In this document: piece after piece, positions 21,501 through 23,856 of the stretch
Numbering within the stretch: the stretch's first letter is position 1
How the letters are laid out: every line of letters begins with the position of its first letter
Origin: Isosphaeraceae bacterium
GTDB taxonomy: Bacteria > Planctomycetota > Planctomycetia > Isosphaerales > Isosphaeraceae
Direction: 5' to 3'
DNA: 34,138 nucleotides
Assembly: GCA_025356475.1 (NCBI GenBank)
Contig: JANXSX010000093.1
Span: forward strand, 1 to 34,138
Program-made: the position numbers and the translations under genes
Notes under the pieces: model-generated
What the model was told of the DNA's origin: nothing
The model's database searches: none
The model's input: the letters and a program-made list of their open reading frames with translations, nothing else

Positions 21501-21882
21501 AGATCTGGACCAATGCCTTCTTTGGTATCAAGGATGGGAGCGGCTTAACTCGGTGGTCCCCGATTGGTCGACACGATCTGTCATGGCGTAGGAAAGACGC
21601 GGCGATTGTACTCTCAGAACGGTTTCGTCGCGAGTTTCAAGCCTCTTCTTTCCGAGTCTGGGGAAATCCTGGCCTCACGTTGTGATCGGTTCAGCCATCG
21701 TCGGAGTGAGTTTTCTTAGGATTGGTTGACAAGGGCGAGCATGTTTGGCAGCGTAGGTCGATTGACCGACCGAGCTTACGAGCGGTAGCGCCCAAACGAA
21801 TTGACATGGATTGGGCATGGCCTTCCGTGTCTTGGTCGTTTTCGCCGTCGTCGCCATCCTGAATAAGAAAAAGGTCCTCCCG
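21501..21882. other. Intergenic region before the lipoxygenase gene
   Basis: No gene, repeat or clear promoter is visible. In-frame TTG and ATG codons at 21811 and 21817 could extend the lipoxygenase N-terminus by a hydrophobic segment (FRVLVVFAVVAIL), so part of the interval may be coding. Confidence 0.3.
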
Positions 21883-23856
21883 ATGATTAAGCCGAAGACC
21901 GATTGGGACGATGCGCATATCAACGTCGTTTCAAAGAGGACACGAAAGCAGGTAGTGGCGGGAGAGGTGGGCTCGGGTTTCCAGGATGGTCTGTCCGCAC
22001 GATCGTTCCCCGAAAGCACCTTCGTTTCGGAGAGCATCGCCCACCTTCCACTCGATCTGTTTGGATTAGGTTGGACAAATATCCCTGCATTTCCCATCAG
22101 TCTTGAGGAGACGGCGGAGGCTGTCGGCAGGTTACTGATCCGCTCGTTCCAGATCAAGCAAGCGGTTCAAGGCCTCACCAATCCCTATACGATTGGAGAA
22201 TACGCGGGGGTCGGACGCGACTTTCTGTATGGCAGAACCTCCACGACCCGCCTGGTGACATCGCTGAAAACGCTCTCGTCGTTAATCGACGACTCGTCCG
22301 CGTCTTGGACGATCTTAAGCCTGATCAAAGACGCAATTGTCAGGGGTGTTGAGGATGTTGCTTCGTCCATATCGCCCCAACCACCAAGTCCGTTCGTCGA
22401 GCAATATCTCGAAGACCCCAAGCAGTGGTCGATGTCCTGGACCACCTTTCCGGAGGTCTATCAGAAAGGGTTTCCCAAACTTGAAGAATGGGCGTCGTCG
22501 CTGACGAACGCAGATGAGGCGAGTAAGCAGTTCTGGCCGATGATTGCGCAACATGGGTTTGCCTTCAACCTGATCATCCTCCAGAAGGTTGGACCCGCCC
22601 AGATTGGGGATCTCCAAACAACCTTCGGCGAGGCTTGGACCGCTGTACTGACCACTGCGTTCCAGGCGGGGCTGCTCTACGCGATTGACCTGCGTCGGTT
22701 TGAAGGTCTCAAACCTCAAGTAGTGAATGGGACCGTTCGGTTCACTCCGGCATCACTTGTCCTGCTGATCCAAGACCCAGCTTCGAAAGCGATGACGCCT
22801 GTCGCGATCCGGATCTCAGGGCACAATGGCAGTGGTGTGCAGATCTATTCGAGGGCTTCGGGCACGACCGATTCCTCTTGGATCTACGCACTTCTGGCGG
22901 CAAAGGCCTCAGTCACCGTCTACGGCGTCTGGCTCGGTCACGTCTATCACTGGCACATTGTCACCGCAGCCATGCAGATGACAATGTATAATCATCTGCC
23001 GCCAAGTAACCCTGTTTATCAAATCCTCGCGCCTCAGTCGAATTATCTCATTGGATTCGACAATTCATTAATGTTGCTATGGTCTTCTGTGGCCCCACCA
23101 ACGTCGATCGCAAGTCCTTTGCAGTTCTTGGATCTCATCGACCAGTTCGCCAATGGACGCAATTTCTTCGACGATGATCCCAAGAACACGATCCAAGCCT
23201 TGGGGCTCGATTCCGCTGCATTTACGATCACCAAGCCCTGGGATCAATACCCGATCGTCGGCCATTTCCTCGACATTTGGGACGCGGTTGAGTCCTACGT
23301 CCGAGCGGTGATTCTTCAGAGTTACGCCGACGATGCAGCCGTGCTTGGCGATGATGCGCTTCAAGCTTGGATCAACAATTCGTCAGACGAGAATGGCGGA
23401 AATATCCGGGGGCTTCCGATCATGGACAGCCGCGATGCGCTGATCCGGGTGGTGACCAGCCTGATCTACCGAGTCAGTGTGCATGGGGCGTCACGGTTGA
23501 ATGAGACGGCAAATCCTGCGCTGACATTCATTGCCAACTTTCCGCCTTGCCTCCAAGACTCAAGCATCCCGCACCCGAACCAAACACTGGACACCAAGGC
23601 GTTATTCAGGTATCTGCCCAAGACCGGGACCATTGGCCAGATGATGAATTTCTATTTCGTCTTTGGTTGCTCGGTTCCCTACGAGCCGTTCATCCCGCTC
23701 GAAGGGATCGAGAGCACTCTCTTTTACGGCGACAACCCGCTCGATCCTAGAAATCAGGCGTTGATCAAGCTCCGCAACCAAGTTCTGGGGTTCCTTCTAG
23801 AGCTGAACAATGGCCTTCCCCAACGGTATCAGTGGCCATTGAATATCGAGACTTGA
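21883..23856 (+). CDS. Lipoxygenase family protein with substituted iron ligands
   Basis: 657 residues from the ATG at 21883 (AAGG 8 nt upstream; an upstream ATG at 21817 adds a hydrophobic 22-residue lead). Lipoxygenases insert O2 into polyunsaturated fatty acids using non-haem iron. Family landmarks run in order: FTPASLVLLIQD...TPVAIRIS; WIYALLAAKASV; HVYHWH, which is the HxxxxH pair of iron ligands (His353, His358); LPPSNPVYQILAPQ; the Asp-rich SYADDAAVLGDDALQAWI block; and VVTSLIYRVSVHGAS with the third His (534). The fourth ligand, normally Asn or His four residues later, is Arg538. The C-terminal Ile carboxylate ligand is replaced: the protein ends PLNIET. It may be inactive, use a different metal site, or do another reaction. 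Bacterial lipoxygenases are usually secreted; no signal peptide is clear here. It ends 14 bp from the opposing DUF1501 gene. Confidence 0.82.
   Translation: MIKPKTDWDDAHINVVSKRTRKQVVAGEVGSGFQDGLSARSFPESTFVSESIAHLPLDLFGLGWTNIPAFPISLEETAEAVGRLLIRSFQIKQAVQGLTNPYTIGEYAGVGRDFLYGRTSTTRLVTSLKTLSSLIDDSSASWTILSLIKDAIVRGVEDVASSISPQPPSPFVEQYLEDPKQWSMSWTTFPEVYQKGFPKLEEWASSLTNADEASKQFWPMIAQHGFAFNLIILQKVGPAQIGDLQTTFGEAWTAVLTTAFQAGLLYAIDLRRFEGLKPQVVNGTVRFTPASLVLLIQDPASKAMTPVAIRISGHNGSGVQIYSRASGTTDSSWIYALLAAKASVTVYGVWLGHVYHWHIVTAAMQMTMYNHLPPSNPVYQILAPQSNYLIGFDNSLMLLWSSVAPPTSIASPLQFLDLIDQFANGRNFFDDDPKNTIQALGLDSAAFTITKPWDQYPIVGHFLDIWDAVESYVRAVILQSYADDAAVLGDDALQAWINNSSDENGGNIRGLPIMDSRDALIRVVTSLIYRVSVHGASRLNETANPALTFIANFPPCLQDSSIPHPNQTLDTKALFRYLPKTGTIGQMMNFYFVFGCSVPYEPFIPLEGIESTLFYGDNPLDPRNQALIKLRNQVLGFLLELNNGLPQRYQWPLNIET

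Follow-up and report, generated by a model that had tools for sequence, protein, structure and literature searches.

A distinct bacterial clade of lipoxygenase-fold proteins with an arginine at or close to the fourth-ligand position

The lipoxygenase-fold gene of the window

The window analysed here is the complete 34,138-base contig JANXSX010000093.1, part of a 5.9 Mb genome of an Isosphaeraceae bacterium, and the gene in question encodes a protein of 657 amino acids with a lipoxygenase fold (Table 1). This gene belongs to a distinct bacterial clade of lipoxygenase-fold proteins, not described so far, in which the three histidines of the metal site are retained and a conserved arginine, according to our models, stands within 1–2 residues of the position of the fourth ligand. 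The reading frame is intact, from an ATG at 21883 to a TGA at 23854–23856 with no internal stops, and the protein ends in WPLNIET. An earlier note, made from the sequence of the window, had singled out His353, His358, His534, Arg538 and the ending PLNIET, and all of these were confirmed. The Pfam Lipoxygenase model (PF00305) matched the protein with an E value of 1.7e-10 and 40.5 bits against a cut-off of 23.6, the match being limited to residues 454–568, and by the same model this is the one lipoxygenase of its genome. The best sequence match in the PDB was human ALOX15B (phmmer, E 4e-18, with region 257–558 aligned), and no NCBIfam model matched the window protein.

Table 1. Features of the lipoxygenase-fold gene, in window positions
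Feature	Position	Strand	Basis
Candidate N-terminal extension in the same frame, starting at an upstream ATG, MAFRVLVVFAVVAILNKKKVLP	21817..21882	+	hydrophobic stretch, then Lys (sequence inspection)
Lipoxygenase-fold protein, 657 amino acids	21883..23856	+	frame, profile, PDB sequence match, predicted fold
His353-V-Y-H-W-His358 (HxxxxH), metal ligands one and two; codons of His353 at 22939 and His358 at 22954	22939..22956	+	His in 24/24; aligned to canonical ligand His
Arg530, one helical turn ahead of His534	23470..23472	+	invariant in clade (24/24)
His534-Gly-Ala-Ser-Arg538, containing the third His ligand and an Arg no more than 1–2 residues from the fourth-ligand position; codons of His534 at 23482 and Arg538 (CGG) at 23494	23482..23496	+	conservation, hmmsearch alignment, structural placement
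Asn540, rival fourth-ligand candidate, unconserved	23500..23502	+	clade column counts
C-terminal Asn-Ile-Glu-Thr, with an invariant Glu656 and a Thr657 whose carboxylate is presumably the last metal ligand	23842..23853	+	clade counts; superposition

A rare clade scattered over five phyla

A scan of genome contigs with the single protein found no relatives. A genome search returned a 54% relative in the window's own family (L009 and L012 being one gene), and a plasmid search returned a 42.5% relative on plasmid pAT1 of Aureibacter tunicatorum, the sole plasmid match, which is already annotated in the database as 'lipoxygenase family protein'. With a three-row alignment (A1) as query, 22 loci were recovered, namely 21 orthologues and one weak partial match (L033). 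The 21 orthologues, the Aureibacter protein, a further locus (L047) and the window protein make up the non-redundant clade set of 24 used below; the 5' end is missing from L014 and the 3' end from L032, and C-terminal counts refer to the 23 complete ends.

Invariant in all 24 members were His353, His358, His534, Gly535, Arg530, Trp350 and Trp357. Position 538 is Arg in every member except L022, which has Asn, the canonical residue, and Arg538 is the sole conserved polar side chain within 535–541, Ser537 being Ser in 16 of 24 members and position 540 being mixed (L6 N5 M4 E3 S2 P2 Y1 D1). Glu656 was found in 23 of 23 ends and is followed by Thr in 21, Leu in one (L018) and Val in one (L022), nearly all members ending in Ile/Val-Glu-Thr. 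The sharing of this motif by five phyla (the three His in 24/24, Arg in 23/24 and the Glu-Thr end in 21/23) is well beyond chance. The search for a clade sharing the Arg and the Thr terminus, which the earlier note had put forward as a test, thus gave a positive answer, and close relatives keeping Asn together with a terminal Ile, which it had also considered, were not seen.

Selection on the gene, also supposed in that note, was borne out by close pairs with unsaturated synonymous divergence (dS), in which the ratio of nonsynonymous to synonymous substitution rates (dN/dS) was 0.09–0.20; the gene is therefore maintained, and the clade is under purifying selection. The tree, which included 11 other bacterial lipoxygenases, separated the clade from them at 100/100 support, with long stems of 2.8 and 1.4 changes per column on either side of the midpoint at which the tree was rooted, the basal branch order not being settled. 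L022 is nested inside Arg-bearing members, so the simplest reading is that the ancestor of the clade had Arg and that L022 acquired its Asn later.

The 23 relatives, at about 40–54% identity, come from Planctomycetota, Bacteroidota, Acidobacteriota, Actinomycetota and Alphaproteobacteria (one member), and include the cultured species Solirubrobacter soli (Actinomycetota), Dokdonia pacifica (Bacteroidota) and A. tunicatorum. No clade member was detected in the 391 further Planctomycetota sampled; the counts elsewhere were 1 of 395 Bacteroidota, 1 of 396 Actinomycetota, 1 of 297 Acidobacteriota and 5 of 18 Dokdonia genomes, the genome used as centre being counted among the matches in these last four samples. 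A search of viral contigs and phages returned no clade relatives. The clade is rare, sporadic and widely scattered across bacteria, and this patchy occurrence suggests that its gene was spread by horizontal transfer. Comparison of gene neighbourhoods across phyla revealed none that was shared, the Dokdonia genomes sharing neighbours only among themselves, and the neighbours in the window are ordinary (leuA-type HMGL, DAHP synthase, diacylglycerol kinase and DUF1501). Two peculiarities of the source genomes were also observed. One Dokdonia member (L031, 3222–5146, the same gene as L054/L055) has a frame break that divides it into two frames, and L012, L028 and L029 are quite different clade members despite their metagenome-assembled genomes all being titled Candidatus Kuenenia stuttgartiensis, titles that look wrong.

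The start codon of the window gene is ambiguous between the ATG at 21883, preceded at 8 nt by AAAAGG, and the upstream ATG of Table 1. A strongly hydrophobic N-terminal segment is found in about half of the clade, all of its carriers being Bacteroidota, and such a segment followed by Lys or Arg was seen in L016, L017, L019, L021–L025, L027, L030 and L047, that is, in most Bacteroidota members. These segments suggest membrane anchoring, as does a comparable stretch that precedes the called start of the window gene (21811–21882).

Fold, C terminus and register at the fourth position

An AlphaFold2 model of the window protein, built on 20 clade members, reached a mean predicted local distance difference test score (pLDDT) of 81.7 and a predicted template modelling score of 0.85. 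Lipoxygenases were its top matches with Foldseek and VIA (Z up to 28.2, with a root-mean-square deviation of 3.2 over 488 residues). Human ALOX15B (4nre, 7laf) matched the model with a Z of 27.6 and differs by a Ser at the fourth position (HAAVS), an Ile end and a PLAT domain. LoxA from Pseudomonas aeruginosa (4g32/5ir4), CspLOX2 from Cyanothece (5med) and the Enhygromyxa salina enzyme (8x8f) are like the clade in fold (Z 23–27), HxxxxH, third His and C-terminal site, at about 14–18% identity to the window protein over the full-length structural alignment, but they have the usual Ile end instead of Glu-Thr and, presumably, Asn in HxxxN where the clade has Arg. The fourth-ligand Asn is presumably also retained in the fungal manganese lipoxygenases (5fno, 5fx8; Z about 25.7 against the model). 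A non-Ile (Val) C terminus occurs naturally in these enzymes (PMC13059375).

Other bacterial lipoxygenases (L003–L008, L010, L044 and L048–L050) all carry HxxxN, unlike the clade, and in the MAFFT alignment the site of Trp357 is never Trp in the canonical rows, where it is mostly Thr. Other bacterial lipoxygenases end in Ile, in Val (L003, L007), in Thr (L004, whose HASVN is canonical), in Trp (L048) or in Ala (L045), so that a terminal Ile is not obligatory, contrary to the earlier note. Some of these proteins are unusual in their own right. A 504-aa frame in an Acidobacteriota genome (L045, genome G1491) is lipoxygenase-like, has a Gly as its fourth-position residue (VEHEILG) and a NINA end, and falls outside the clade; L048, from a Saprospiraceae genome (G1615), has a canonical HSSLN, an SSASW end and a very long tree branch; and L044 (Actinomycetota) and L049 (Saprospiraceae) form a lipoxygenase pair of their own, characterized by SHLxNxH, HTxVN, an SIQI/QIQI-type end and extra sequence ahead of the C terminus, paired at 100/100 in the tree across two phyla.

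The last ligand of lipoxygenases is the terminal carboxylate of the chain, usually that of Ile and sometimes of Val (PMC13059375), and Thr in place of Ile therefore does not remove a ligand. In the predicted model, residue 657 superposes on the terminal residue of solved lipoxygenases (663, 673, 676, 685, 839 and 1066), an Ile in many of them, which puts the C terminus in register, so that its carboxylate could bind the metal. The terminal carboxylate of the model thus falls where the lipoxygenase superfamily has it, with Thr as the residue instead. The earlier proposal that two ligands had been lost is not sustained, one of the two being supplied by Thr657.

Alignment around His534 was less clear. 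HGASR was aligned to HAAVN in an hmmsearch comparison with 11R-lipoxygenase, and in the MAFFT and hhalign alignments His534 comes one residue too soon and Asn540 falls in the column of the canonical Asn, the profile-profile match of the clade to canonical lipoxygenases (L003–L008/L010) reaching 99.8% with E 3e-28 in hhalign. The three fixed His of the superfamily are present in 24/24, the third on the canonical column or one off, depending on the method. Superposition of a fragment model (46–538) brought Arg538 to position 695 of soybean lipoxygenase, 555 of 5-LOX, 558 of ALOX15B, 546 of rabbit 15-LOX and 560 of LoxA, positions that we take to be one past the canonical ligand; as the last residues of this model have a pLDDT of 48, the register is bounded but not settled. 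Models thus place Arg538 within 1–2 residues of the fourth-ligand position, and its standing exactly on that site would depend on the register. The absence of a conserved His, Asn or Ser at 535–541 is independent of the register, and at position 538 itself L022, with its Asn, is the only member with one of the residues expected at the fourth position in the superfamily. To this extent the earlier claim of an Arg in place of the fourth ligand stood, its exact site being uncertain by 1–2 residues.

The possibility that the anomaly is an illusion of alignment, with slippage of the helix and Asn540, Ser537 or water filling the fourth position of an ordinary divergent lipoxygenase, was raised by the same data, given that Asn540 meets the canonical Asn in the MAFFT and hhalign alignments, as the earlier note had foreseen, with His534 slid by one, and that Arg538 lies one past the canonical ligand in the fragment superposition. 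But position 540 varies within the clade, and Asn540 is therefore not a conserved ligand; moreover, Ser537 is much less conserved than Arg538, whose lone exception is precisely the canonical Asn. Asn540 and Asn544 were both ruled out as substitute ligands, being unconserved in the clade.

Function of the clade

According to a 2026 review, every lipoxygenase has a His, Asn or Ser next to its three His, and the shared core is 3-His-1-carboxylate, with the Asn/His position usually in the second sphere (PMC13059375). Hence Arg need not abolish metal binding, and an inactive pseudoenzyme, suggested at the outset, is not the default reading. Judging from the conserved residues and the predicted fold, the clade probably consists of metal-dependent lipoxygenase-type enzymes with a 3-His/1-carboxylate site and an adjoining Arg. 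Replacement of the fourth-position residue has a precedent in the Asn694Gly soybean lipoxygenase studied by Segraves in 2006 (cited in PMC12838591). This mutant reportedly kept some activity. A single non-haem metal (iron, possibly manganese) would be held by the three His and the terminal carboxylate of Thr657, with Arg538 beside it and not binding it. The role of Arg538 might be to hold the C-terminal tail through the invariant Glu656, or to interact with a metal-bound water or peroxide or with the carboxylate of the substrate, and the enzyme would probably still oxygenate an unsaturated lipid or rearrange a lipid hydroperoxide. Several points weigh against this explanation: Arg is not a normal neighbour of a metal and could hinder its binding; the register near His534 is uncertain by 1–2 residues; the pLDDT of the model is below 50 at residues 655–657 and averages 76 for 531–550, so that metal geometry cannot be judged; and a conserved neighbourhood pointing to a lipid pathway is absent in the loci compared.

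The alternatives overlap in part with this explanation and with one another, and the likelihoods that we assign do not sum to one. It is conceivable, though doubtful, that the clade is an enzyme family in its own right, which uses the lipoxygenase fold and a site of three His, Thr carboxylate and Arg for a chemistry other than ordinary dioxygenation of polyunsaturated fatty acids, and whose gene was transferred sporadically. Somewhat less likely is a metal enzyme whose reaction or substrate has changed (for example, hydroperoxide isomerase activity with epoxyalcohol formation, or a substrate that is not a fatty acid), tuned by Arg538 and Trp350/Trp357; the changes that all members share in the first sphere and near it, the long stem to canonical lipoxygenases and a Trp357 unlike the canonical rows speak for it, but these changes could merely retune ordinary dioxygenation. 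We regard as unlikely a pseudoenzyme whose fold is retained to bind lipids or to serve as a scaffold associated with membranes, with a site that does not turn over. An Arg where all lipoxygenases are described with His, Asn or Ser (PMC13059375) and the N-terminal hydrophobic segment in about half of the clade would fit such a role, but a non-metal function would not require five phyla to keep all three His, a C terminus of exact length and its Glu-Thr end. The alignment illusion discussed above is more improbable still. Finally, sequencing or assembly error, a frameshift or a decaying pseudogene was ruled out, and the full-length gene without frameshift of the earlier note upheld, since the motif and the end recur in independent genomes of five phyla, the frame is open and dN/dS is well below 1.

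Among the open full-text papers searched, none that described the clade or an Arg at the fourth position was found. These proteins would be missed by screens that insist on the usual clusters of ligands, as the criterion of the Myxococcus fulvus study does (PMC6612559). A clade of five phyla with Arg at the fourth position would contradict the His/Asn/Ser generalisation of the review (PMC13059375) and, with the Asn-bearing L022 and several cultured species among its members, it is natural material for probing the role of this residue. The clade probably still binds metal, and may carry out an unusual lipid chemistry.
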